A stretch of 63,984 nucleotides of DNA from Bacteroidetes bacterium RIFCSPLOWO2_12_FULL_35_15 (GTDB lineage: Bacteria > Bacteroidota > Bacteroidia > 2-12-FULL-35-15): contig MEPB01000005.1 in the NCBI GenBank assembly GCA_001769385.1, positions 1-63,984 on the forward strand. Reading direction: 5' to 3'. Each line of letters opens with the position of its first letter. The first letter of the stretch is position 1. Under the pieces are notes generated by a model. It worked only from the letters and a program-made list of their open reading frames with translations. It ran no database searches and was not told the origin of the DNA. The translations under genes and the position numbers were made by a program. This document shows, piece after piece, positions 160-14,554 of this stretch.

Positions 160-2064
160 TTATCTTCCTAAATAGATCATCAAAATAGAAATATCGGAAG
201 GAGTGATCCCTGAAATTCTGGAAGCTTGTCCAATTGTTCTGGGTTTTATTTTGGTCAATTTTTCACGCGCTTCTGCTGATAAAGAAGTCAGTCTTTTATA
301 ATCAAAATCATCATGCAAAACAAGATCTTCTAATCGCGTTTGCTTATCCGCTAACTCATGTTCTTTTGAAATATATCCTTCATATTTCATTAAAATTTCA
401 GCTTGTTCAATACTCTCTAAATCATATTTAGAAATGAATTCTTTTACCTTTTGGGAATAAATTGCGAAGTCCAAAAGTGTAACACCCGGACGCGCTAAAA
501 CTCCAAACATTTTTACTTTCTGAGAAATAGGAGCGGAGCCAATTGCCTCTAAAGCTGGATTTATTTCTGAAGGATCTATACTCTCTTTTTTGAAATAAGC
601 AATGATTTCCGTAGTCTGTTTTTGTTTTAATTGAACCCGGTCTAATCTTTCTTTTTTCGCTAAACCTATTTCATATGCTTTAGGAGTTAAGCGAATATCT
701 GCATTATCCTGACGCAATAAAATACGATATTCAGCACGGGAAGTAAACATCCGATATGGTTCATTTGTTCCCTTTGTAACAAGATCGTCAATCAAAACTC
801 CGATATATGCTTCGGACCGCTGAAGTATAAATGCTTCTTTTTTATTCACTTTTAAATGCGCATTGATGCCGGCCATCAAACCCTGACAAGCGGCTTCTTC
901 ATATCCGGTTGTCCCATTAATTTGTCCGGCAAAATATAAATTCTCTATTAACTTTGTTTCAAGCGTAAGACTCAATTGTTGTGGTGGAAAATAATCATAT
1001 TCGATAGCATACCCAGGACGAAACATTTTTACATTTTCGAAACCGGGTATCTTTTTCAAAGCTTTGTATTGAACATCTTCCGGTAGTGAAGTGGAGAACC
1101 CATTCACATAAATTTCTACCGTATTCCATCCTTCCGGTTCCACAAATATCTGGTGCCTGTCGCGCTCCGCAAAGCGTGTAATTTTATCTTCTATACTCGG
1201 ACAATACCTTGGTCCTAAACCTTGAATCCGACCAGAAAACATAGGCGATTTTTCAAAACCTGTCCTTAAAATTGCATGGACCTCTTCATTGGTATAGGTC
1301 ACATAACATGGAATTTGTCCTTCCGGTCCGTTCCCAAGTGGTCCCTCTCGTTTCGTTTTAAAGGCAAATTGCTCGCTATTCAGATAGGAAAATTTGTTAG
1401 GATTTTCATCCCCATGTTGTACTTCCATTTTTGAATAATCCAAGGAACGCCCATCGATACGGGGAGGTGTTCCTGTTTTCATTCTGCCTGCTTCAAAACC
1501 TAATTCTACTAATTGTTCGGTAATTCCTTTGGATGCGCTTTCGCCTGCTCTCCCGCCACCATATTGCTTTTCACCCAAATGGATGATGCCATTTAAAAAA
1601 GTTCCATTGGTTAGAACCACTGATTTTGCTCGTATTTTAATATCCATGCCGGTAATTACCCCGCATACTTTTCCATCTTCAATCATCAACCCTTTAACCA
1701 TATCCTGCCAAAAATCCAGGTTTGGTGTGGCTTCCAGCATTAAGCGCCATTCTTCAGCAAATTTCCACCGATCACTTTGTGCCCTGGGACTCCACATGGC
1801 AGGACCTTTTGAGCGGTTCAGCATACGAAACTGAACAGCAGTTTTATCGGTAACAATTCCTGAATATCCGCCCAATGCATCTATCTCCCTCACAATTTGC
1901 CCTTTTGCAATCCCACCCATAGCAGGATTACAACTCATTTGTGCAATGGTTTGCATATTCATGGTAACGAGCAGAGTGGATGAGCCCATATTTGCTGCTG
2001 CAGCAGCGGCTTCACAACCTGCATGACCCGCGCCTACTACTATTACATCGTATTCCTTAAACAT
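160..2064 (-). CDS. mnmG: tRNA uridine-5-carboxymethylaminomethyl(34) synthesis enzyme MnmG (GidA)
   Basis: FAD-dependent partner of MnmE that installs the cmnm5 group on U34 of several tRNAs in the cytoplasm. The 634-residue length fits the family. The N-terminal Rossmann motif G-A-G-H-A-G-C (residues 11-17) binds FAD, and the conserved S-C-N-P-A-M-G-G-I-A-K-G segment follows near residue 45. The C-terminal helical GidA-associated domain runs through to the end. The ATG at 2064 overlaps by 1 nt (TAATG) the stop of a small upstream membrane ORF, so the two are probably co-transcribed from the -7 box at 2248-2255. MnmE is not in the window. Confidence 0.97.
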   Translation of the reverse strand: MFKEYDVIVVGAGHAGCEAAAAAANMGSSTLLVTMNMQTIAQMSCNPAMGGIAKGQIVREIDALGGYSGIVTDKTAVQFRMLNRSKGPAMWSPRAQSDRWKFAEEWRLMLEATPNLDFWQDMVKGLMIEDGKVCGVITGMDIKIRAKSVVLTNGTFLNGIIHLGEKQYGGGRAGESASKGITEQLVELGFEAGRMKTGTPPRIDGRSLDYSKMEVQHGDENPNKFSYLNSEQFAFKTKREGPLGNGPEGQIPCYVTYTNEEVHAILRTGFEKSPMFSGRIQGLGPRYCPSIEDKITRFAERDRHQIFVEPEGWNTVEIYVNGFSTSLPEDVQYKALKKIPGFENVKMFRPGYAIEYDYFPPQQLSLTLETKLIENLYFAGQINGTTGYEEAACQGLMAGINAHLKVNKKEAFILQRSEAYIGVLIDDLVTKGTNEPYRMFTSRAEYRILLRQDNADIRLTPKAYEIGLAKKERLDRVQLKQKQTTEIIAYFKKESIDPSEINPALEAIGSAPISQKVKMFGVLARPGVTLLDFAIYSQKVKEFISKYDLESIEQAEILMKYEGYISKEHELADKQTRLEDLVLHDDFDYKRLTSLSAEAREKLTKIKPRTIGQASRISGITPSDISILMIYLGR

Positions 2065-4061: not shown

Positions 4062-5111
4062 TCAGGCTTTTATGGCCCAACGCAATTTTGCTGAACGTGC
4101 ACGAGGATTGGTATTACATTCCTCTGCGGATGGCCGGATCGGATCTGGGGCAATAGAACTGTAAATACCTTCACGAAATAAATTTTGAAATGATTTTTTA
4201 ACGCGCCTGTCTTCGCCTGAATGAAAAGATAGTATGGCCACCCGACCACCTGCTGCCAGCGCATCAGGAAGCTTCTCAAGGAATTTATCCAATACACCAA
4301 ATTCGTCATTTACGGCTATTCGTAATGCCTGAAAGCAGCGCTGACAAGATTTTTTAGTGAGATCCTTGCGGGTATTTGCCGGAAGAAATTCCAGCGTTTC
4401 TGTAATTATTTGCTGCAAATGTGTTGTTGTGGCTATGGAAATTCCTTTTTGTTTTTTTGAAATGATTGCTTTCGCGATAAGCTCGGAGTAGGGTTCATCA
4501 GCATTTTCCAGAAACAACTCTTGTAATTTTTGTTGAGAAATATTTTTTAATAACTCTGAAGCGGGCTTTCCGCTTTTAGGATTAAGCCTCAAATCTAAGG
4601 GGCCTTCGATCTTAAATGAAAATCCTCTTTCGGGATTATCTATTTGCATGGAAGAAACACCAAGGTCTGCGAGTACAAAATTCAAGGGTCCGACTTCGCC
4701 AGCTATTTGATCGATGCCTGAAAAATTCATTTTTTTAATTATTAACACTTCAGGTCCAAAACCTAAAGCCGCCAAACGATCTCTGGTACGTGGTAATTCG
4801 ATAGGATCTACATCAATGGCATATAATCTCCCATTGGGAACCAAGTGTTTCAGCATTTCTAAACTATGACCACCATAACCAAGCGTGGCATCCAATCCTA
4901 TTTGTCCGGGAACAATAGAAAGGAATTTTAGTATTTCATCCACACAAATAGAACGGTGCATCCCTGCCGGTGTGCGCCCTTGTTCCATCACTTTTGCAAT
5001 ATCCTCTTTATAGACCTCCGGTTGAAGTTCTTTGTATTTTTCTTTAAAAGATTTTGGGTGTGTGCCTTTGTATCGTTGCCTGCGAACACGTTCCGGCTTT
5101 TTATCTTCCAT
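4062..5111 (-). CDS. RsmH/MraW-like rRNA (cytosine-N4)-methyltransferase paralogue with N-terminal extension
   Basis: 349 residues. The SAM-binding motif D-A-T-L-G-Y-G-G-H-S (74-83) and later D-L-G-V-S-S-M-Q and A-I-L-S-F-H-S-G-E-D-R motifs are those of the RsmH family, which methylates C1402 of 16S rRNA. A basic extension of about 50 residues (KKPERVRRQRYKGTHPK...) precedes the first family motif, here M-H-R-S-I-C-V-D-E-I-L instead of H-x-P-V-L-L-x-E. The gene is not in a cell-division (dcw) cluster. It therefore looks like the second, divergent RsmH-type subfamily rather than the housekeeping copy. A decayed copy of its first codons lies at 6155-6217. Confidence 0.8.
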   Translation of the reverse strand: MEDKKPERVRRQRYKGTHPKSFKEKYKELQPEVYKEDIAKVMEQGRTPAGMHRSICVDEILKFLSIVPGQIGLDATLGYGGHSLEMLKHLVPNGRLYAIDVDPIELPRTRDRLAALGFGPEVLIIKKMNFSGIDQIAGEVGPLNFVLADLGVSSMQIDNPERGFSFKIEGPLDLRLNPKSGKPASELLKNISQQKLQELFLENADEPYSELIAKAIISKKQKGISIATTTHLQQIITETLEFLPANTRKDLTKKSCQRCFQALRIAVNDEFGVLDKFLEKLPDALAAGGRVAILSFHSGEDRRVKKSFQNLFREGIYSSIAPDPIRPSAEECNTNPRARSAKLRWAIKA

Positions 5112-5192
5112 TTGGTAAAAATAATAAATTTAATTATTAACATACTATTGAAGCAAGATGCTTCTTTATAATTGGAACGTTTAGAAACTATA

Positions 5193-5529
5193 ACTGTTCG
5201 AAACATTTTATTCTTTTACTTTCTTTTTCTGCCGCAAAAAGAAAGTAACAAAGAAAAGCCACCACAAAAACCAACCCCAAGTCTTCGTTTTACCCACAAA
5301 AGCCTTACGCCATATCTCCACGAAACTTGTGGTTCGCACTTTTTGTGGACATCAGCCGCACCGCTGCTAATTTTCTTTGTGCAAAATTTAATTTGGTAAG
5401 AGCGGGTAAGGCTTGAACAAACGCGATGCCGAGTTGCCAGTGTGGAGAAATCGTTTGTTCTTGATTTTTTCGTTCTTTTTGATCAAGCAAAAAGAACAAA
5501 ATACAAAAACTTACAAGATTTCGAACAGT
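5193..5529. repeat. Structured dispersed element, copy 1
   Basis: Bounded by an 11-bp perfect inverted repeat, ACTGTTCGAAA (5193-5203) and TTTCGAACAGT (5519-5529), itself flanked by a 9-bp direct repeat TTAGAAACT (5181-5189, 5535-5543). Inside are a 13-bp perfect hairpin (5216-5228 with 5236-5248), a 9-bp helix GAACAAACG/CGTTTGTTC (5415-5423 with 5452-5460) and a 9-bp hairpin (5472-5480 with 5489-5497). The body (about 5236-5370) is close to 90% identical to 33314-33445. It explains the whole gap between the RsmH-like gene and the next gene; short open frames here are not credible. Confidence 0.75.
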
Positions 5530-5573
5530 AAAGGTTAGAAACTCGCTCCTGCGTAACACTCGTGTTGACGTAT

Positions 5574-6110
5574 TTATTTTTTGCTTTGAAATTTACAGGT
5601 GGCTACAAACTCTTTTAATTCCTTTGATTGTCCAAACTCTCTTGAAAAAAATTGTCTTGCAGGTAATTGTGCAAATTTTTCAACCATACAATTACAAAAT
5701 ATATCAATATTAATTGTCGTGTCTCCATCAGAATTTCTATATTCTTCTAATAACCCTTGTTTAACATAACTTTTTAATGAGTCATTCCATTGCAATTCTG
5801 GATGAGTTGATCTGCTATTTATCGTGTTGTTTTGAGCAGCTGGGGTAATTAATATACCAAACAATGCCATAATGGAAAAGATTTTTAAAAATCCCCACGT
5901 GTAATTTGAATACTTGTTTTCTTCCTCTATTATTTGTTTTGGCTTAAAAGCGCTTCTGAATAATAAACCGCAACCGATAATTGATAAAGAAGTAATAATC
6001 GTAAAGAACCAGATGTTTCCTGTTTCCTTATATCCAGTATACCCTTCCTTTGTAAAACTTACTATAAGTAAAATTCCTAGAAAAATTTTAGCTGTTTTTT
6101 TATTATTCAT
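5574..6110 (-). CDS. Hypothetical membrane protein
   Basis: 178 residues from the ATG at 6110; a TTG five codons further upstream is less likely. Three hydrophobic segments (about 9-25, 36-54 and 75-92) are followed by a soluble C-terminal half. That half contains a C-N-C motif (F-C-N-C-M-V-E-K-F) and another Cys near the end (ATCKFQSKK), a pattern I have seen in small Bacteroidota proteins without known function. It lies between the two copies of a 63-bp duplicated segment, so it may have arrived with that rearrangement. Confidence 0.6.
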   Translation of the reverse strand: MNNKKTAKIFLGILLIVSFTKEGYTGYKETGNIWFFTIITSLSIIGCGLLFRSAFKPKQIIEEENKYSNYTWGFLKIFSIMALFGILITPAAQNNTINSRSTHPELQWNDSLKSYVKQGLLEEYRNSDGDTTINIDIFCNCMVEKFAQLPARQFFSREFGQSKELKEFVATCKFQSKK

Positions 6111-6154
6111 AATATACTTTTTCAAGTGTCACAAAGTAGAACTTAACGCTTACT

Positions 6155-6217
6155 GTGTGTGCCTTTGTATCATTGCCTGCAAACACGTTCCGGCTTTTTA
6201 TCGTCCATTGGGTAAAG
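6155..6217 (-). pseudogene. Decayed duplicate of the 5' end of the RsmH-like gene
   Basis: About 63 bp match 5057-5119 at all but a few positions in the same orientation. On the minus strand it would encode MDDKKPERVCRQ-stop-YKGTH, compared with MEDKKPERVRRQRYKGTH in the intact gene, so an in-frame stop has appeared. It includes sequence just upstream of the start codon. It marks a past duplication or insertion that placed the segment 5120-6154 between the two copies. Confidence 0.75.
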
Positions 6218-6300
6218 CTAAGAAAATTAATGACGTGCAGCCCTTGCAGGTTCTATTTCATCCGCAATACAATACCGAAAAAGTTATAATTTTTCTCTTA

Positions 6301-7584
6301 TTATTTCTTTTGTTGGATGATTAGTTTTCCTGTATTATTTTTTAACTGATAAAAATAAATACCATCCGGCAAATTTGCTATTGTGATTTCCGTTTTCGGA
6401 TCTGTGATCTGAATTTGTTTTACTTCTCTGCCTAACAAATCACTGATCTTCAAATCGCATTGTTCATTTTTAAAATTATCAATTTGCAAGGTAAAATTGT
6501 TAGCCGCGGGATTTGGGTAGATCTTAACTTGTTCTTCTGTGTAGGTGTTTTCATTAAGGGATGTAGCGGGACAATAAGATTGCCAAACAGAGAAAGCCGG
6601 TCGGTCATTTCCTATAGAATCACGCATTGCTATGCTTTTAAAAATTAACGATTCCGGTGTATTGGAATTATCCATCATATAATTTAAAAACAACCAATTT
6701 ACAACCTCCACGTTTCTGCCATTCAGGATATTAAAGAGTTTATTTACCCAATCAACTTGTTCCTGTGGCGAAGCGTTCCAATTTCCATATAAGGAATCAC
6801 CTGGCCAACCTGTTTCTGTTATCGCTAAGGGTATATTTCCAATTTTGGAAAATAATGCATCTAAATAATTCAGTGATACACTGTTTGCTTGTTGTGCATT
6901 AAAGAAAGGGTATAGCGTTAATCCAACGATATCCATTTTTGATGTATCCAGATCCAGTAAAGCATTCCAGAGAGGAGTGTTCCATCCTGTATTTATTCCT
7001 TGTCCGGATAAATGCTCATAATTGAAAATAGTACCCACTTTAGTAGTTGGAGAATAAAATTTAATTGAATCGTAAGCCATGCTGTAAAAGGAGGCCCAAT
7101 TGGCATAATCAGATGAATCTTGTGCGAAATAAAAATTAACTTCATTCCCAATAAAAATATAAGCAGGATTTAATGAATCGGCTGCATGAACCAATGTTTT
7201 TATAAATAAATTACGCATCGTGCTGTTTGTCCAATTGTTGGTGGAATCATTATTTGTATTTAAGTAGAGCGTAGGATAGGTTGCCCAGCCAAATACCAGT
7301 ATGTCGGTATAATTATATGGCACAGGCTGGAGTTGAGCTATTGTTTTTTGAAGCGTTGGAATATTTCCTGAATTAGCAATGTTATCTCTCCAGCTTCCGT
7401 TTGCCATTACAGCACCGCCATTACATGTATTAGCAACTTCAAGTAAAAAAGTCCCGAATTGTGAATAGTCGGTTGGGTGACCAACCGGAGAAACCCCGTA
7501 ACCCAATTTACCATTAAAGGATTGTGAAAACAAAGATGTTGTTAAACACAATGCAACACAGAGAGTAATGATTCGTTTTTGCAT
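6301..7584 (-). CDS. Secreted clan GH-A-like glycoside hydrolase with T9SS sorting domain
   Basis: 427 residues from the ATG at 7584; an in-frame start at 7635 would only put 17 polar residues before the signal peptide (QKRIITLCVALCLTTSLFSQ). The middle looks like a TIM barrel with G-N-E (Glu148, probable acid/base) and I-T-E-T-G-W (Glu257, probable nucleophile), as in retaining clan A glycosidases such as GH39/GH53. The last 75 residues (V-K-I-Y-P-N-P-A ... L-P-D-G-I-Y-F-Y) form a type A T9SS C-terminal domain, so the enzyme is exported and probably surface-anchored or released. Substrate unknown. Confidence 0.8.
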   Translation of the reverse strand: MQKRIITLCVALCLTTSLFSQSFNGKLGYGVSPVGHPTDYSQFGTFLLEVANTCNGGAVMANGSWRDNIANSGNIPTLQKTIAQLQPVPYNYTDILVFGWATYPTLYLNTNNDSTNNWTNSTMRNLFIKTLVHAADSLNPAYIFIGNEVNFYFAQDSSDYANWASFYSMAYDSIKFYSPTTKVGTIFNYEHLSGQGINTGWNTPLWNALLDLDTSKMDIVGLTLYPFFNAQQANSVSLNYLDALFSKIGNIPLAITETGWPGDSLYGNWNASPQEQVDWVNKLFNILNGRNVEVVNWLFLNYMMDNSNTPESLIFKSIAMRDSIGNDRPAFSVWQSYCPATSLNENTYTEEQVKIYPNPAANNFTLQIDNFKNEQCDLKISDLLGREVKQIQITDPKTEITIANLPDGIYFYQLKNNTGKLIIQQKK

Positions 7585-7771
7585 ATTGTTTGATGTTTTT
7601 TTGTAAAATGTGAAACGAATTGACCAAGAAACCAATTAATTGTGCAAAATTTTATCCGATATAAATTTATAAAAAATTACTCAATGGAATTTAAAATACA
7701 GATTTGTACGCATAGTCCCACTTTGTTACTTTTAACAAGATTATAACCTATTATTGAAAAAAAATTATTAT

Positions 7772-7795
7772 TGAAATAGAAAAAATTCTATTTCA
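7772..7795. repeat. 10-bp perfect hairpin between divergent genes
   Basis: TGAAATAGAA - aaaa - TTCTATTTCA. It sits in the 434-bp gap between the divergent glycosidase and POT transporter genes, so a regulatory site fits better than a terminator. The rest of the gap shows nothing except the nadA-like copy at 7912-7940. Confidence 0.45.
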
Positions 7796-7911
7796 GGCGG
7801 AACACCTTGATGTGTCAGACATAGGGCGCTATAAAATTCGAAACATTCTAATTTCATTAATTTTCTATAAAAAAACTTTTGCTTCGTTTCCTATATTTTA
7901 TTTTTAAATCA

Positions 7912-7940
7912 TACAAGCTAAACTGAACTGATAATTCTAA
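7912..7940. repeat. Degenerate third copy of the nadA 3' end
   Basis: 25 of 29 bases match the nadA terminal sequence at 11863-11891, and all four differences are transitions. Read on the minus strand it gives LELSVQFSL against LELSAQFGL at the NadA C-terminus. It lies just upstream of the POT gene, outside the exact copy at 9683. Confidence 0.6.
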
Positions 7941-8018
7941 AAACCAAAAACAACATTTAACTTTTTAATGAGAAACATTTTTTATCTTTCCTCGCAAATT
8001 CTTAAAACCAATTTTCAC

Positions 8019-9653
8019 ATGGCAAAAAAACATCCTAAGGCACTACCTTATTTATTTCTTTCTGAAATGTGGGAACGTTTTGGATTTTATCTTATGCTCG
8101 GCATATTTTTCCTTTATATGACCGATACTGAACGAGGGGGTTTAGGCATGGACAGGAAGGAAGCGGCTGATATTTTCGGAACTTATATTGCGCTTGTTTA
8201 TCTGACACCATTTATCGGTGGTTTGTTAGCCGACCGGATTTTAGGTTACCGGCTTTCAATTACCATCGGAGGAATTTTAATGGGCCTGGGGTATATCGGG
8301 CTTGCACTGCCCGGCACAACAGCTTTTTATGTATCGCTACTTACCATTTGCATAGGCAACGGCTTTTTTAAACCTAATATTTCAACCCTTTTAGGAAATG
8401 TTTATAACGATGAAAAATACAAACCTTATAAAGATGCGGGTTATAATATTTTTTACATGGGAATTAACATCGGAGCTTTTATTTGTAATTTTTTTGGTGC
8501 TTATCTGCGAAATACATTTAGTTGGGGTGCTGCATTTTCAGCTGCAGGAATAGGAATGTTTATTGGGGTAATTATTTTCTGGATTGGATCGAAGCACTAC
8601 AAACATGCGGATGTTCGTAAAGAAACAAAATCAGAAGATATGCCTGTGGTAAAAATTTTAGGCTTAACCCTTCTTCCAGCGCTTATTGTAGGGTACATCG
8701 GTTGGATCATTCCCGGGAATATTTTCGGAAGTGACAGTACCGATGCATTTATTTTTGGTGCCTTACCTGTTGCCGGATATTATGTTTCTCTGATGTTACG
8801 CTCCAATGCCGAAGACAAAAGACCTATTTCGGCCTTACTTGCAGTGTTTGCCGTTGCAATTATATTTTGGGCAATTTTTAAACAAAATGGAACAGCATTA
8901 ACAACATGGGCCGAAAGCTATACGGATAGGGAAATTCCTACCATGCTGGTGAAACCTGCAAAAGTTCTTGGGATGATACAGGAACCAAAATTTGTGAAGG
9001 ACTCTGTTCCGCTTGTGGATGAAAAATTCCGTGTTGTACGCGATGCAAATAATAAACCTCTGAAAACTTTTTCTTATCCATTATATTTTAAAAATCTTGC
9101 TCCTGAAAAACTGCCTGCAGAGGGTGAAAAAGTAACGCTTGTTTCCACTGAATTGATGCAATCCATAAATCCATTCTGGGTAATTATATTAACTCCTCTG
9201 ATTGTATTATTCTGGGTATTTCTGAAAAGGAAAAACAAAGAACCAACCACTCCATACAAAATTTTTTATGGATTATTGATCACCGCTTTATCTACACTTG
9301 TTATGGTAGTTGCCACTTATATGTGCTATAACGGACAGGAAAAAAGTTCGATGTGGTGGCTCGTTGCCAGTTATGGTGTTATAACGGTGGGCGAATTATG
9401 TTTAAGTCCAATGGCATTATCACTGGTTTCAAAACTATCTCCTCCCCGACTAACCGGTTTAATGATGGGAGGCTGGTTTCTTTCTACTTCTATTGGAAAT
9501 AAAATGAGTGGAGTGCTTGCCAGTTTATGGGATGGTTATGAAAATAAAGCAAATTTTTTTCTGGTGAATTTTATTCTTGCATTAATCACCTCTGTTATAA
9601 TTTTATTAATGATCAGATGGCTGAATAAGATCATGAAGGAACATGGAGTTTAA
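8019..9653 (+). CDS. POT-family (PTR2) proton-dependent oligopeptide transporter
   Basis: 544 residues from the ATG at 8019 (MAKKHPKALPYLFLSEMWERFGFY); an upstream ATG at 7968 adds 17 residues that family members lack. The signature E-x-W-E-R-F-G-F-Y on helix 1 is the proton-coupling motif of POT transporters, and G-G-L-L-A-D-R-I-L-G-Y-R is the MFS-type loop. About 14 hydrophobic segments, with an extended loop near residues 300-370 that is usual in Bacteroidota members. It imports di- and tripeptides across the inner membrane. It lies between the degenerate and the exact nadA-end repeats. Confidence 0.92.
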   Translation: MAKKHPKALPYLFLSEMWERFGFYLMLGIFFLYMTDTERGGLGMDRKEAADIFGTYIALVYLTPFIGGLLADRILGYRLSITIGGILMGLGYIGLALPGTTAFYVSLLTICIGNGFFKPNISTLLGNVYNDEKYKPYKDAGYNIFYMGINIGAFICNFFGAYLRNTFSWGAAFSAAGIGMFIGVIIFWIGSKHYKHADVRKETKSEDMPVVKILGLTLLPALIVGYIGWIIPGNIFGSDSTDAFIFGALPVAGYYVSLMLRSNAEDKRPISALLAVFAVAIIFWAIFKQNGTALTTWAESYTDREIPTMLVKPAKVLGMIQEPKFVKDSVPLVDEKFRVVRDANNKPLKTFSYPLYFKNLAPEKLPAEGEKVTLVSTELMQSINPFWVIILTPLIVLFWVFLKRKNKEPTTPYKIFYGLLITALSTLVMVVATYMCYNGQEKSSMWWLVASYGVITVGELCLSPMALSLVSKLSPPRLTGLMMGGWFLSTSIGNKMSGVLASLWDGYENKANFFLVNFILALITSVIILLMIRWLNKIMKEHGV

Positions 9654-9682
9654 GTGATTTTATTAGAAAACAAAATAAACTA

Positions 9683-9734
9683 TTACAAACCAAACTGAGC
9701 TGATAATTCCAACATTCTGATAATTGGTTTTTTA
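9683..9734. repeat. 52-bp exact copy of the nadA 3' end (outer repeat)
   Basis: Identical over 52 bp to 11862-11913, starting exactly at the complement of the nadA stop codon and covering its last 16 codons. Same orientation as nadA. Flanking bases differ on both sides. It forms one end of a direct repeat around the OLD-type nuclease gene, like an attachment site left by integration into the 3' end of nadA. Confidence 0.9.
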
Positions 9735-9886
9735 ATCCTTTACACGAAAAATGGCTACTGGCAAACAACGCAGAGGACTGTTTTTTTTCCAGTGCCAAGT
9801 TTTATAAATCTAAAAATTATGATTTTAGTTTCCTTGTTAACTATTTGGATGTTATGTAGGTTTGCTGATAAATTTACAGACGGCAG

Positions 9887-9912
9887 ATTGCAGGTGAAAT
9901 AACACCTGCAAT
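9887..9912. repeat. 10-bp hairpin downstream of the OLD-type gene
   Basis: ATTGCAGGTG - aaataa - CACCTGCAAT, 41 bp beyond the stop codon of the nuclease gene. No T run follows on the minus strand, so a classical intrinsic terminator is doubtful; it may be an RNA 3' stabiliser or a recombination-related palindrome. Confidence 0.5.
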
Positions 9913-9952
9913 GACTTGGTTAATGCAGCACCAACAGGGACAAAAATTTTCC

Positions 9953-11743
9953 CTATGCCTTGTTAAATACGACAGGTAACTTTCTAAAACAATCTATTTT
10001 TTCTATAATATCCTTAAGTTCGGATGGCACAGATATTTGTTGTAAGCTATTTATTATGTTAGATTGAGTTATTGTAATTTTTAGTTCATTCTGCAAATAC
10101 ATGTTTAATTCGGATAGAAAATCTTTTCCAGGTAGAATTTTTAATCTTTCATTTAAATCATTCCATTGTTGCTCAAATTCTCTTAGAATTGATTCAGTTA
10201 TTGTTGATTCATCATTTCTAGGAGTATTTCCTTTTTCAAATTTTAATCTATATGACTGCAATTGAGCTTGCGTTTTATATTTAAAATTATCCGATATAGA
10301 ATTTAATACTAGATTAATATCTTTATTAAATGATATAGATTTTCCACTTCTAATATTTGCTTCCTTAATACGATCATGTATTGCTTTTTCTATGGCTTCT
10401 GGTACAAGAAGAAAATTTTCTATTTCCTTACAACTATGAATATGTGCAAAATTGTTTCCTTTATTTAAATCTTCCAGTTCACCTGTTACTTCTTTTTCAG
10501 ATCTATAATCTCTATCAAATATAACTGCTGAAAGAATTTTAGATCCTATTGTTTTTTCAATTCCTTCTTTGAAAGCTCTAAGTCGCGTGGGATTGAACCC
10601 TTCAATAGGTACAACCGCGAAATCAGTTCTATTTGCTACTTGTTCTTTATTGAGTATTCTAGCAATTTTTGAAAGAATCGAAAAATCTTTTCCTTCGACA
10701 AATAACACTCTTTTTGACTTAGCTATTTGTGTCAAAATAGGATTTAAATTTGAACCTAACACTTGAAATATATCCCTTAATTGTGAAGGGTCTTTTATTC
10801 TTTTGGCTGATTGATTCACTTTATTTATTAGTAGAATATCATTTAATTCTGCTTCACTAATAAGTTCTGTTGAGTGTGTAGCTATAATAATATCGGGCCC
10901 AATCGTTTTAAGAACAGCAAGTAACTGTCGTTGTAAATCAGAATGTAAATATATGTCAGGTTCGTCTATAAGAAAGATTGATGCATTTTTATTTTTAATA
11001 ATGTATGTTAGCATTTGACACCAAACTTGAAATCCATAACCTGCCCAGAAAATTTCTCTAGGAATTCTTTCTTCTGGACAAAACATATCGAGTGTAGGTT
11101 CTTTTTCAGATTGATTTACTTCTGGTCTATCAATATCCATCCCGGGCCAAGTCCTTTTTATTAATTCCTTAAACTCAAGAAAATCTTCATTGTAATGATA
11201 CCAAATATTTCTAAAATTTCTTGATGCTGTATAAGTTAATAGAGCTAATCTGGCAGCTTCTTTTTGATAAAGCCTTTCTTTATGATCAACCGGTCCTAAT
11301 ATCGGAACAAATCCTATTTCAATATTTACTAATTCTTTAAATTCTTTGGGAGATTTAACTATAGAAGATTCTGATTCATAGTTAAGATAACATTCCCCTT
11401 TTTTTGGAAAAAAAACTTGTAGGTATGCACCATCAGATAGTCGAAACCTTATTATTGCTGGTGTTTCGTCATCATAATTATGAAAAACATTTTCTGTCGC
11501 AACTGGAACTTGACTTAAATCAATTTCATACCCTAAAACTTGATTACCGATAGGATCGTTAATAAAAATTGGTTTTTTAGATTTTGCTTTTCGGATACCT
11601 TCAGCGAGAATTTTTAAGGAACCAATAATGGTAGATTTTCCTGCATTATTTGGTCCTACAAGAATATTAAAACTATTTAATGAAACCGTAAATTGACTGA
11701 AGCTTTTGTAATTTTTATATTTTATCGAAGTTATATGTTGCAT
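9953..11743 (-). CDS. OLD-family ATP-dependent endonuclease (AAA15 ATPase + TOPRIM)
   Basis: 596 residues. ABC-type ATPase: Walker A G-P-N-N-A-G-K-S-T (30-38), Walker B I-F-L-I-D-E-P (256-262), H-loop A-T-H-S (288-291). A TOPRIM nuclease follows: V-L-F-V-E-G-K-D (Glu350), F-D-R-D (Asp410/Asp412), then the C-K-E-I-E-N-F-L-L motif (438-446) common in OLD-like proteins. Family members cut DNA and several act in phage defence (P2 OLD, GajA, PARIS AriA). No UvrD-like helicase, reverse transcriptase or second gene adjoins it, so it looks like a stand-alone class 1 OLD. It is enclosed by 52-bp direct repeats of the nadA end, suggesting recent acquisition. Confidence 0.9.
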   Translation of the reverse strand: MQHITSIKYKNYKSFSQFTVSLNSFNILVGPNNAGKSTIIGSLKILAEGIRKAKSKKPIFINDPIGNQVLGYEIDLSQVPVATENVFHNYDDETPAIIRFRLSDGAYLQVFFPKKGECYLNYESESSIVKSPKEFKELVNIEIGFVPILGPVDHKERLYQKEAARLALLTYTASRNFRNIWYHYNEDFLEFKELIKRTWPGMDIDRPEVNQSEKEPTLDMFCPEERIPREIFWAGYGFQVWCQMLTYIIKNKNASIFLIDEPDIYLHSDLQRQLLAVLKTIGPDIIIATHSTELISEAELNDILLINKVNQSAKRIKDPSQLRDIFQVLGSNLNPILTQIAKSKRVLFVEGKDFSILSKIARILNKEQVANRTDFAVVPIEGFNPTRLRAFKEGIEKTIGSKILSAVIFDRDYRSEKEVTGELEDLNKGNNFAHIHSCKEIENFLLVPEAIEKAIHDRIKEANIRSGKSISFNKDINLVLNSISDNFKYKTQAQLQSYRLKFEKGNTPRNDESTITESILREFEQQWNDLNERLKILPGKDFLSELNMYLQNELKITITQSNIINSLQQISVPSELKDIIEKIDCFRKLPVVFNKA

Positions 11744-11800
11744 TTAATTATACTATCAAAGATTTTTTGTGAATTATATCAAATGTACTTATTCTTTAAT

Positions 11801-11836
11801 ATAAAAAAAGAGGTAAAACATTTGCTTCACCTCTTT
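11801..11836 (-). terminator. Intrinsic terminator of nadA
   Basis: On the minus strand an 8-bp stem (AAAGAGGT with ACCTCTTT; arms at 11829-11836 and 11807-11814) is followed by a T-rich run. It lies 26 bp after the nadA stop, on the island side of the 52-bp repeat, so the present nadA transcript ends in sequence brought by the insertion. Confidence 0.7.
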
Positions 11837-11861
11837 CAATCAATTTAAAAAGTTTTAAAAC

Positions 11862-11913
11862 TTACAAACCAAACTGAGCTGATAATTCCAACATTCTGAT
11901 AATTGGTTTTTTA
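11862..11913. repeat. 52-bp nadA 3'-end repeat (inner copy, within nadA)
   Basis: The in-gene partner of the repeat at 9683-9734. The unit between the two copies, 9735-11913, is about 2.2 kb and carries a single gene, the OLD-type nuclease. Confidence 0.9.
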
Positions 11914-12848
11914 GCTTCCCGTATTAATTCTTCTGATAATAGTATTTCGGGCTGTTCGTATTTAAGGCAATTATAAAGCTTTTCCAGCGTGTTTAATTTC
12001 ATGTGGGGGCAATCGTTGCAAGCACAGGAATTATTAGGTGGAGCGGGTATAAAGGTCTTTAATGGATTTGCTTTTTGCATCTGATGGATGATGCCTGCTT
12101 CGGTAGCAACAATAAATTCGGTAGCAGGTGATTGGGTGGAATATTTTAAAATACCTGTTGTACTACCAATATAATCAGCTATTTCTAATAAGTTAGCTTC
12201 ACATTCAGGATGCGCTAATAATTTTGCATTCGGATGTTGATTTTTAAGTTTGGTGATTTTCTCTAATGAAAATATTTCGTGAACCATACACGCCCCATCC
12301 CATAAAATCATATTACGACCCGTTTTTTTATTGATATAAGCACCTAAATTCTTATCGGGCGCAAATATGATCTTTTGATCAATTGGAAGGCTCTCAACAA
12401 TTTGAACTGCATTGGTGGAGGTACAAACAATATCAGTTAATGTTTTTAATTCAGCAGTGCAATTAATGTAAGAAATTACTAAATGATCGGGGTGTAGTTT
12501 TTTGAATGTTGCAAATTTATCTGCCGGACAGGAATCTGCTAATGAACAACCTGCGTTTAAATCTGGTAATAAAACTTTTTTGTGAGGTGAAAGAATTTTT
12601 GCAGTTTCGGCCATGAAATGAACGCCTGCAAAAACAATAATGTCGGCATCGGTTCTGGCTGCTTCCTGGGATAATCCCAAACTATCGCCAATGTAATCGG
12701 CAATGTCCTGTATGTCGGCATCCTGGTAATAGTGGGCAAGTATGATGGCATTTTTTTCTTTTTTGAGTTTGTTTATTTCGGAGAACAAATCTAGAGAAAA
12801 ATCAATTGGAATATCTAAAAAGCCTTTTGTCAACAAATCACTATCCAT
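11862..12848 (-). CDS. nadA: Quinolinate synthase A
   Basis: 328 residues. Condenses iminoaspartate (from NadB) with dihydroxyacetone phosphate to quinolinate, using a [4Fe-4S] cluster. Cluster ligands are expected at Cys101 (NAGCSL), Cys187 (DGACMVH) and Cys280 (NDCPHM). Conserved H-Y-Y-Q (39-42) and H-P-E-C-E are present. It is separate from nadB, which is at 33609. The last 52 bp are duplicated at 9683. A -7 box with an overlapping palindrome lies upstream. Confidence 0.97.
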
Positions 12849-12920
12849 AATAATAATATATTTATTTTAATTAAAATTTAAAAAATTGTTGTTGTTATTG
12901 GTCTGTTAGTTCAGTGTAAA

Positions 12921-12939
12921 AATACTTTACAAAAGTATT
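12921..12939 (-). promoter_or_regulatory. nadA -7 box overlapping an 8-bp palindrome
   Basis: The minus strand of 12930-12937 reads TACTTTTG (TAnnTTTG), about 80 nt before the nadA ATG. It is embedded in AATACTTT-aca-AAAGTATT, a perfect 8-bp inverted repeat with a 3-nt spacer. A repressor bound there would cover the promoter. No identical palindrome precedes nadB. Confidence 0.45.
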
Positions 12940-13608
12940 GACTTTTTGACTTTTAACATACTGTAAAACGTAATTAAAAAGTTCTTAGGCTATAAATAGC
13001 TGAAAAATAGATTATTCGAGCTTTATAAACAATGTGTTAATTAAGTTATGAGATGATAAGTAATAGGAATAAACAAGCAACTTTATGTTATTAAATTGTT
13101 CATTTATTCTATTAAAAAATAATAAGATTATAGCTGATTATCCAAAAAAATATCCATGCAAATTAAATACTTAACAATCCTATGGAAATCTTTTAAAGAT
13201 TACTAACAGAATAACCCTTTTTCAACAAAATTAGTGTTAATAAAATAAAAATTAGAGTGCTGTTTATCAAGCTATTATTTTTGAACTTTACAAAACTGTT
13301 AATAAGGTGAAAAAGCTGTTAATTACGTTGGAATTGCTTGATATTTAATATAGAAGGTTTATTGGAACGCAGATTTATTAAGAAAGATTAAGAAAGAAAA
13401 ATGATTTTAAGTTTTACTGATTTAGTAGGATATAGTAAATGGAACGCAGATTTAGTAGGAAAGATTAAGGATTTAATATTTTTTAAAATGTTATCCTAAT
13501 ATCAATAGAGAATCAACTAAATCATAAAATTTTAAAATCATAAAGGATCAGCGAAGATCAGCGTACCATAATATAAAGTGCAACACTATAAATTATAAAA
13601 AATAAAAA
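12940..13608. other. Intergenic region, no gene recognised
   Basis: About 670 bp of AT-rich sequence between divergent nadA and rpiB. No convincing coding frame. Two short direct repeats sharing GGAACGCAGATTTA then AAGATTAA occur at about 13364-13395 and 13441-13471, a common scattered motif in this phylum. An isolated TATTTTTG at about 13275 has no gene near it. Confidence 0.6.
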
Positions 13609-14043
13609 ATGAAAATAGCAATAGGTTCTGACCATGCCGGATTTGAATTAAAACAAAAGCTAATACCTTATCTGCAATCCCAAGGATATGAGGTGAAAGA
13701 TTTTGGTTGTTATTCAGAGGAACGCGCAGATTATCCTGATTTTGCACATCCTGTTGCAAATGCAGTAGAAAATAAAGAAGTTGATTTTGGTTTATTAATG
13801 TGTGGCACCGGCAACGGAATTAACATGGCGGCAAATAAACATGGAGGAATACGTGCTGCATTGTGTTGGAAGCCGGAAATAGCAGAATTAGCCCGATTGC
13901 ATAACGATGCTAATATATTAACACTTCCTGCACGTTGCATCAGTGAAGAAGAAGCAAAAAAATGCACAGATGTTTTTTATACCACCGCTTTTGAAGGAGG
14001 AAGACATACGGACCGGGTGAAGAAAATTTCAAATGGTTGTTAA
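13609..14043 (+). CDS. rpiB: Ribose-5-phosphate isomerase B
   Basis: 144 residues. Interconverts ribose 5-phosphate and ribulose 5-phosphate in the pentose phosphate pathway. G-S-D-H-A-G-F-E (6-13) binds substrate phosphate/ring, and M-C-G-T-G-N-G (64-70) carries the catalytic Cys65 and the anion hole. R-x-x-x-C-W-x-P and H-N-D-A-N-I-L-T-L complete the RpiB/LacAB signature. Allose 6-phosphate activity is possible in some homologues. It is followed by a long repeat array rather than an operon partner. Confidence 0.95.
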   Translation: MKIAIGSDHAGFELKQKLIPYLQSQGYEVKDFGCYSEERADYPDFAHPVANAVENKEVDFGLLMCGTGNGINMAANKHGGIRAALCWKPEIAELARLHNDANILTLPARCISEEEAKKCTDVFYTTAFEGGRHTDRVKKISNGC

Positions 14044-14554
14044 TCTACGAAATACGAATGAGTATGAATCTCCGAAACTGTGTTAAAAAAACTTTGCGCC
14101 TTCGCGCCTTAGCGGCAAAAAAACGATAAGTTACGAATAAACGAATGAATACGAATCTACGAAACTGTGTTTAATATAACTTTGCGCCTTTGCACCCGGA
14201 GTTTATCCTGAGCGAAGTCGAAGTGAGGCAAAAAAAATTATGAGTTACGAATAAACGAATGGAAACTAATTTACTAAACTAAGTGTTGGAAAAAACTTTG
14301 CGCCTTCGCGGCTTAGCGGCAAAAAAAATGATGGGTTACGAATAAACAAATGGTTGCTAATCTACGAAATACGAATGAGTACGAATTTACGAAACTGTGT
14401 TTAAAAAAAACTTTGCGTCTTCGCGCCTTAGCGGCAAAAAAGCGATAAGTTACGAATAAACGAATGATTGTTAATCTACGAAATACGAATGAGTACGAAT
14501 CTCCGAAACTGTGTTTAAAAAACTTTGCGTCTTCGCGCCTTAGTGGCAAAAAAT
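14044..14554. repeat. Array of five imperfect 80-125-bp units ending at the peptidase start codon
   Basis: Each unit has a TACGAA-rich part (GTTACGAATAAACGAATG and variants) followed by a core reading roughly AACTTTGCGCCTTCGCGCC then TTAGCGGCAAAAAA. Cores lie near 14089, 14179, 14295, 14409 and 14521. The second core is interrupted by another scattered motif, GGAGTTTATCCTGAGCGAAG (14198 onward). The last core stops 3 bases before the ATG at 14555. Units are too long and too divergent for CRISPR. Confidence 0.8.

Follow-up and report, generated by a model that had tools for sequence, protein, structure and literature searches.

Two single-gene pieces lie directly behind the stop codon of a nadA gene that has remained whole, and beyond each of them lies a spare piece of the nadA 3' end: an exact one beyond an OLD-type nuclease gene and a decayed one beyond dtpT, a peptide transporter gene. 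Because similar footprints were found at five other genes, nadA appears to be one target among several. Our tentative reading, held with somewhat less than even confidence, is that these are att-like insertions that restored the gene end, made by a recombinase that acted in trans or has been lost; they would resemble cis-mobilizable elements (CIMEs) and would not reflect a dedicated nadA/OLD element. Coordinates refer to the window, the whole stretch of 63,984 nucleotides that was analysed.

Table 1. Coordinates of features at the nadA and rsmH loci of the window
Feature	Position	Strand	Basis or remark
mnmG, the gene that normally follows nadA in the genus	160-2064	-	~9.8 kb from nadA here
rsmH 5' end, working copy (54 nt of gene + 23 nt upstream)	5058-5134	-	PF01795
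Insert 3, ~1 kb: ORF 5574-6125 + dispersed repeat ~5190-5536	5135-6154		between the rsmH-end copies
Spare rsmH 5' end, 90% identical, internal stop	6155-6231	-	repeat comparison
Copy 3, decayed last ~30 bp of nadA	7911-7940	-	25/29 aligned bases
Insert 2, 1.74 kb, carrying dtpT	7941-9682		bounded by copies 2 and 3
dtpT-like POT peptide transporter	7968-9653	+	PF00854, E 2e-59
Copy 2, exact second nadA 3' end, 52 bp	9683-9734	-	exact repeat
Insert 1, 2,127 bp, single ORF	9735-11861		bounded by copies 1 and 2
Insert 1 tail, hairpin-rich	9884-9952		z -4.4; in part akin to a dispersed palindromic repeat
Stand-alone OLD-type ATPase/TOPRIM nuclease, 596 aa	9953-11743	-	Pfam, PADLOC, PDB sequence matches
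Intrinsic-terminator-like hairpin, ~25 nt past the nadA stop, within insert 1	11806-11837	-	14 pairs; z -4.4
Copy 1, terminal 52 bp of nadA, part of the working gene	11862-11913	-	exact repeat
nadA (quinolinate synthase), intact	11862-12848	-	ORF; PF02445, E 3.5e-126

Direct comparison of copies 1 and 2 gave 52 identical nucleotides, made up of the nadA stop, 16 codons and one base, with position 11862 being the final base of the stop codon. Identity breaks sharply on either side (9682 A versus 11861 C; 9735 A versus 11914 G), and nothing longer is repeated exactly, in direct orientation, anywhere in the 64 kb analysed. The initial annotation had described just such a repeat starting at the nadA stop, which holds base for base, and had placed one gene between the copies; a single ORF of at least 80 aa is listed there, with ATPase domains and an Old match. 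It had missed copy 3, a 77-bp repeat at rsmH and the distance to mnmG. Copy 3 lies below the sensitivity of our repeat scans and was first spotted by eye and tested afterwards; its score was reached in 4 of 10,000 shuffles of the query and 1 of 10,000 shuffles of the region. A 30-bp IUPAC pattern from the stop-side part of the block, designed to cover copies 1-3 and allowed up to three mismatches, matched three places in the 5.39-Mb genome, all at the nadA locus and in a single orientation, and the reversed-pattern control matched none. No tRNA was found in the window and no Rfam RNA across 5000-13700. Tandem and interspersed repeats of 22-27 bp occupy 14037-14545, between rpiB and the next peptidase-like ORF.

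The gene in insert 1 seems to be an unremarkable stand-alone representative of a known family; its putative TOPRIM part is identified by motif. The top PADLOC match of the ORF was Old (E 7.9e-23), and Pfam returned AAA_21 (E 2.1e-19) and AAA_15; the Pfam TOPRIM model gave no match at 1e-3. An ABC-type ATPase domain with a conserved Walker A (GPNN.GKST) is present, and Walker A, E350, D410 and D412 are invariant among four homologues. The FVEG and DxD residues are invariant among the same four, and there are PADLOC matches to both Old and GajA. From the meaning of the motif, we take the E and DxD residues to be those expected of TOPRIM. The flanking genes are dtpT and nadA, so that neither a UvrD-like helicase nor a reverse transcriptase stands next to it as a partner; nor is there a GajB helicase among them, which separates the gene from Gabija (Class 2 OLD). 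Class 1 OLD, as characterized in the portion of PMC10568477 available, is a single gene without a UvrD-like helicase or reverse transcriptase partner. The predicted protein resembles the Class 1 proteins P2 Old and Thermus scotoductus OLD in being encoded by a single gene with an ABC-type ATPase and TOPRIM-type residues, but differs in that, among solved structures matched by sequence, GajA chains (E 1.7e-7) outrank the OLD chain 6p74 (4.3e-4). We infer that it may work as a Class 1 OLD nuclease, perhaps with an antiphage role.

Outside the ORF, insert 1 has only 218 and 118 bp, too small for a decayed recombinase, and Pfam finds no recombinase in the ORF itself, in agreement with the initial annotation. 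The hairpin-rich tail was considered as an att arm and rejected, as it consists in part of a palindromic repeat that is dispersed in this genome. This extragenic repeat (GCAGGTG..CACCTGC and variants) occurs at many places, including 9884-9914 and the loci L002 and L122-L130, often near a TTGGTG-type hairpin; its strict forms are rare.

The nuclease gene looks foreign to this genome. Its GC content is 29.4%, versus 34.4% in a sample of the genome, and none of 814 sampled ORFs had a lower GC3. An ortholog was absent from the 35 congeners searched, which gave short weak matches only, and 4 of 394 genomes of the phylum, this one excluded, matched at 1e-20. The nearest relatives found were in G100, from another family of the phylum (58% identity), and G295 (56%), with others on two Cupriavidus megaplasmids (48% and 47%); viral contigs held no close relatives, and phage records gave no tblastn match. 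The homologues in G100, G295, G236 and the two megaplasmids were considered as carriers of the repeat and rejected: none has a gene-end direct repeat, although the G295 contig ends inside the gene and the G236 gene is broken. The G100 homologue has dispersed repeats on one side. The repeat is thus seemingly not a property of the nuclease.

Relatives indicate what the site looked like before. A nadA gene turned up in 28 of the 35 congeners searched. With distances taken from where the tblastn alignment stops, mnmG begins about 92-255 bp past nadA in 16 of these and 781-1014 bp past it in three. In one (G005) it lies 5,067 bp away with other genes between, and in eight it was unseen within the stretch examined. 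The nadA gene is 81-90% identical to those of congeners with mnmG close on its 3' side, and most sampled congeners have neither the OLD piece nor the dtpT piece behind nadA. The much greater nadA-mnmG distance here makes the nuclease one of several additions. No second nadA end of comparable strength was found (best E 4e-4) in 112 nadA loci, some sharing genomes, with flanks of 0.3-8 kb and many of only 1.5 kb; neither OLD nor dtpT matched beside nadA in 114 such loci, several from the same genomes, with flanks up to 6-10 kb and often 1.5 kb.

These comparisons bear out the earlier proposal that the nuclease was inserted at the nadA 3' end and left nadA intact, as relatives have one nadA end and no adjoining nuclease. 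That proposal had named two patterns as counting against it, a nuclease beside nadA without the repeat throughout the relatives and an empty site already carrying both copies; we saw no nuclease in the 35 congeners and no second end in the 112 loci. Relatives carry a single nadA end, and the empty site that it had called for is nadA-mnmG and not nadA-dtpT. The closest relative by mnmG (86% of DNA) and ispF (94%), G023, shares the order mnmG, small ORF, hydrolase, rsmH with this genome, and nadA was not found in its assembly. The nadA-mnmG spot seems to take insertions repeatedly. The G005 gap (L176 6482-11546) holds 5 kb of other genes, and no nadA-end repeat was found in it. It includes a gene pair that we take to resemble HigB/HigA.

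The dtpT gene of insert 2 is 85-87% identical to dtpT in G017, G005 and G007; in the first two, dtpT and nadA sit on different contigs. Homology with the G005 dtpT region starts at 7939, the edge of copy 3. The boundaries of the repeat pair around dtpT may be off by a few bases or more. With the order nadA, OLD, copy 2, dtpT, copy 3, the distal copy is the decayed one. Since the dtpT-side copy has decayed and the OLD-side copy is exact, we infer that dtpT probably arrived first and OLD second.

A second footprint lies within the window, at the 5' end of rsmH, where 77 bp (5058-5134 and 6155-6231, 90% identity) flank an insert of about 1 kb. The spare end reads MDDKKPERVCRQ*YKGTH, the working gene MEDKKPERVRRQRYKGTH and the G023 gene MDDKKPERIRRERYKGTH; G023, G017 and G033 each have a single rsmH 5'-end copy in the stretches examined. 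Because the spare end shares V and Q with the gene of this genome and carries a stop, an origin within this lineage is probable, although G023 has the same D as the spare. The ORF at 5574-6125 was seen solely in this genome among the loci examined. The accompanying dispersed repeat (5190-5536), about 290-350 bp long with imperfect inverted ends as judged by eye, has many copies genome-wide and genus-wide.

Elsewhere in this genome, on C19, about 22 bp of the ispF 3' end, plus a short stretch past it, recur at a distance of 1.6 kb next to a glycosyltransferase-like gene, with one ORF bearing a T9SS tail between the copies. In G023, ispF abuts the glycosyltransferase gene (90.6%, within 13 nt), which constitutes an empty site and means that the spare ispF copy here occupies the native place. 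The stop codon is TAA in the spare copy and in G023, and TAG in the working gene. Among 29 other ispF loci, with flanks of at most 1.5 kb, none had the T9SS ORF alongside. Three further cases come from two relatives: a 36-bp repeat (89%) around an FMN reductase and an M43 peptidase in G018 (C22), a 41-bp repeat (100%) around 6.4 kb with four ORFs in the same genome (C34), and a 102-bp repeat (90%) in G017 (C31), whose frameshifted spare lies behind a 1,201-aa ORF with SprB repeats. For the ispF and C34 pairs, too, the boundaries may be off by a few bases or more. In all there are seven cases, six at gene 3' ends and one, rsmH, at a 5' end, with duplicated blocks of about 30, 30, 36, 41, 52, 77 and 102 bp. 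No Pfam recombinase family was found in the scanned main ORFs of the seven inserts, the scan of the G017 ORF covering 625 of its 1,201 aa; three ORFs match no family.

The scans behind these cases covered 1.27 Mb of this genome and 0.40 Mb each of G018 and G017 at a cut of 42 bits, with pairs in more than three copies excluded (before this filter there were 49 in G000, 10 in G018 and 6 in G017). Nine low-copy pairs were listed, of which five were accepted. The four set aside were C60 1262-1298 (three copies) and C49 143609-143675 (a palindromic repeat) in this genome, and G018 C2 87284-87321 (three copies) and G017 C31 88996-89038 (three copies, terminator-like) in the relatives. The ispF pair scored 41.9 bits, just below the cut, and was recovered in two other scans; the nadA/OLD case was the starting observation and is no independent hit. 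Also left out of the count were G018 C22 2819-2853/7373-7407 (86%, an ORF 5' end), C60 4404-4516, C68 363-804 and the tandem-like pairs of G018 C44. No accepted leftover exceeds 120 bp; among the few long pairs some look tandem and others were left out of the count. As a control, 1.07 Mb from 90 other loci, of which the nadA search supplied 80 and congeners or genomes with OLD homologues the remaining 10, yielded two pairs (L014, L020), both of one dispersed repeat, in a less sensitive scan of pieces up to 19.5 kb at a cut of 40 bits. A 204-bp repeat at C60 was rejected as a case and is instead part of a two-gene tandem duplication; there, a 3.3-kb unit is duplicated (L190 7971-14146, G000 C60).

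At the six gene 3' ends, the match between the copies extends beyond the stop codon by about 0, 0, 0-8, 3, 9 and 0 nt. Against simulated duplications dropped at random into these sequences with every ORF left unbroken, which end halfway on average (mean d/L 0.48), this pinning has P 0.00013 for all six cases and 0.0006 for the four clearest. Pinning to the stop codon is what integration of the att type, restoring the gene end, predicts, and so it favours the att-like reading. Under that reading, the dtpT piece would have integrated first at the nadA 3' end, restoring it, and the OLD piece later at the same end, through a recombinase that acted in trans or has meanwhile disappeared; the outcome would be CIME-like remnants accumulating at one site. 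The terminator-like hairpin that insert 1 carries for nadA fits this account. Against it count the lack of any recombinase match in the scanned ORFs of the inserts and the variety of targets: to reach six different genes in three genomes, recombinases of several specificities would be required. In addition, one case involves a 5' end, and much of the cargo is untypical of mobile elements (a peptide transporter, an FMN reductase, T9SS-tail and surface-type proteins). A crude motif scan of 153 ORFs behind nadA at 74 Bacteroidota loci found no tyrosine recombinase, and the degenerate nadA-end pattern had no match in viral contigs. The earlier interpretation is therefore supported in part: insertion at the nadA end is borne out, but nadA as the nuclease element's own attachment site is not, as the nadA end also brackets dtpT and footprints with unrelated cargo occur at rsmH, ispF and genes of relatives (three cases). 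A transposon with target-site duplication was rejected, the duplications being about 30-102 bp and the inserts showing no shared ends by eye.

Known systems offer partial parallels to att-like insertion. The CIME definition that we used follows the part of PMC5704250 available. At nadA the target gene is intact, gene-end copies flank the inserts, and each insert has one gene and no integration or transfer gene. Both features that recall CIMEs and tandem accretion, as that excerpt presents them, are found here: direct repeats of a gene 3' end around an insert in which no integration or transfer gene was seen, and tandem insertion at one site with the distal copy decayed. The differences lie in the very small size of the nadA inserts, 2.1 and 1.7 kb, and in the spread of footprints over several unrelated genes; our searches also yielded no parent ICE or IME sharing the att. 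The Dehalococcoides ssrA islands, in the sections of PMC3146451 consulted, stand in tandem with ssrA-end repeats, 15 without an integration module and 16 with a CcrB-like integrase; they are alike in serial insertion behind one gene, each leaving a 3'-end copy, and unlike in having that integrase and an RNA-gene target, whereas here the target is a protein gene and no recombinase was seen. The microcin H47 island is likewise small, with short direct repeats and no site-specific recombinase of its own, according to extracts of PMC5426353; RecA-independent excision between its repeats has been shown, whereas our case is built from sequence.

A broader possibility, which we consider doubtful, is that a general and so far undescribed insertion process operates in the genus, placing short, mostly one-gene pieces directly behind stop codons. 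The same process, no less doubtful, would rebuild the gene end (30-102 bp) and leave the old end as a decaying spare beyond an insert without a recombinase. No description of this footprint appeared among the matches listed in searches of open-licence papers. Bacterial pangenomes commonly contain small gene insertions that bear no mobile-element signature, and how these arise is seldom known. If such a process exists, it would give housekeeping genes a simple route to new neighbours, defence genes included. The footprint is recurrent, datable by decay and checkable against empty sites, which makes the question directly testable; it also offers a means of finding captured genes, among them stand-alone defence genes, that element finders would miss.

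Illegitimate capture is an unlikely explanation, a shade below that general process in our estimate. Two nicks 30-100 bp apart would be filled in and a stray fragment ligated between them, leaving a long target-site duplication; the joining would be done by Ku and LigD. No recombinase is needed, any gene could serve, block lengths vary, the inserts share no ends by eye, and this genome encodes Ku (E 9.1e-43) beside LigD-like ORFs. Random breaks would not pin blocks to the stop codon (P about 1e-4). They would also leave about 4.4 of seven cases wholly intergenic in simulation, and none was accepted, a weak contrast because four repeat-like pairs were set aside. Ku was found in 10 of 36 genomes, this one included, yet G018 has two cases and no Ku match, so Ku end joining is seemingly not required. 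In this genome, Ku is followed by two ORFs that jointly resemble LigD (L241 4491-8158, G000 C26), presumably its phosphoesterase part and its ligase plus polymerase part. Non-homologous end joining is sporadic in bacteria, as stated in the passages of PMC7719229 used.

We regard homology-anchored capture as improbable, slightly more so than illegitimate capture. A fragment from a relative with cargo after the same gene would recombine through the shared gene end, either by single crossover of a circle or by homology-facilitated illegitimate recombination, and the recipient's own end would stay. This would account for the stop of identity at the gene edge, for chromosomal-looking cargo, for any gene serving and for the one 5'-end case. 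Such capture is described in naturally competent species and as rare in E. coli in the text of PMC3240628 seen. However, among the relatives sampled the cargo never adjoins that gene (114 nadA loci; 29 other ispF loci), and the ORF at 5574-6125 is private to this genome among the loci examined. The exact 52 bp would moreover require a conspecific donor, because the matched congeners, weaker matches not being listed, differ there by 14-20%.

That the OLD repeat arose by chance or through an assembly artefact is very improbable: the source assembly is in 110 contigs, but the match breaks off exactly at the stop codon, the remaining copies differ from their originals, unlike the product of a misjoin, and the ispF and rsmH cases are separate, with G023 single-copy for both.
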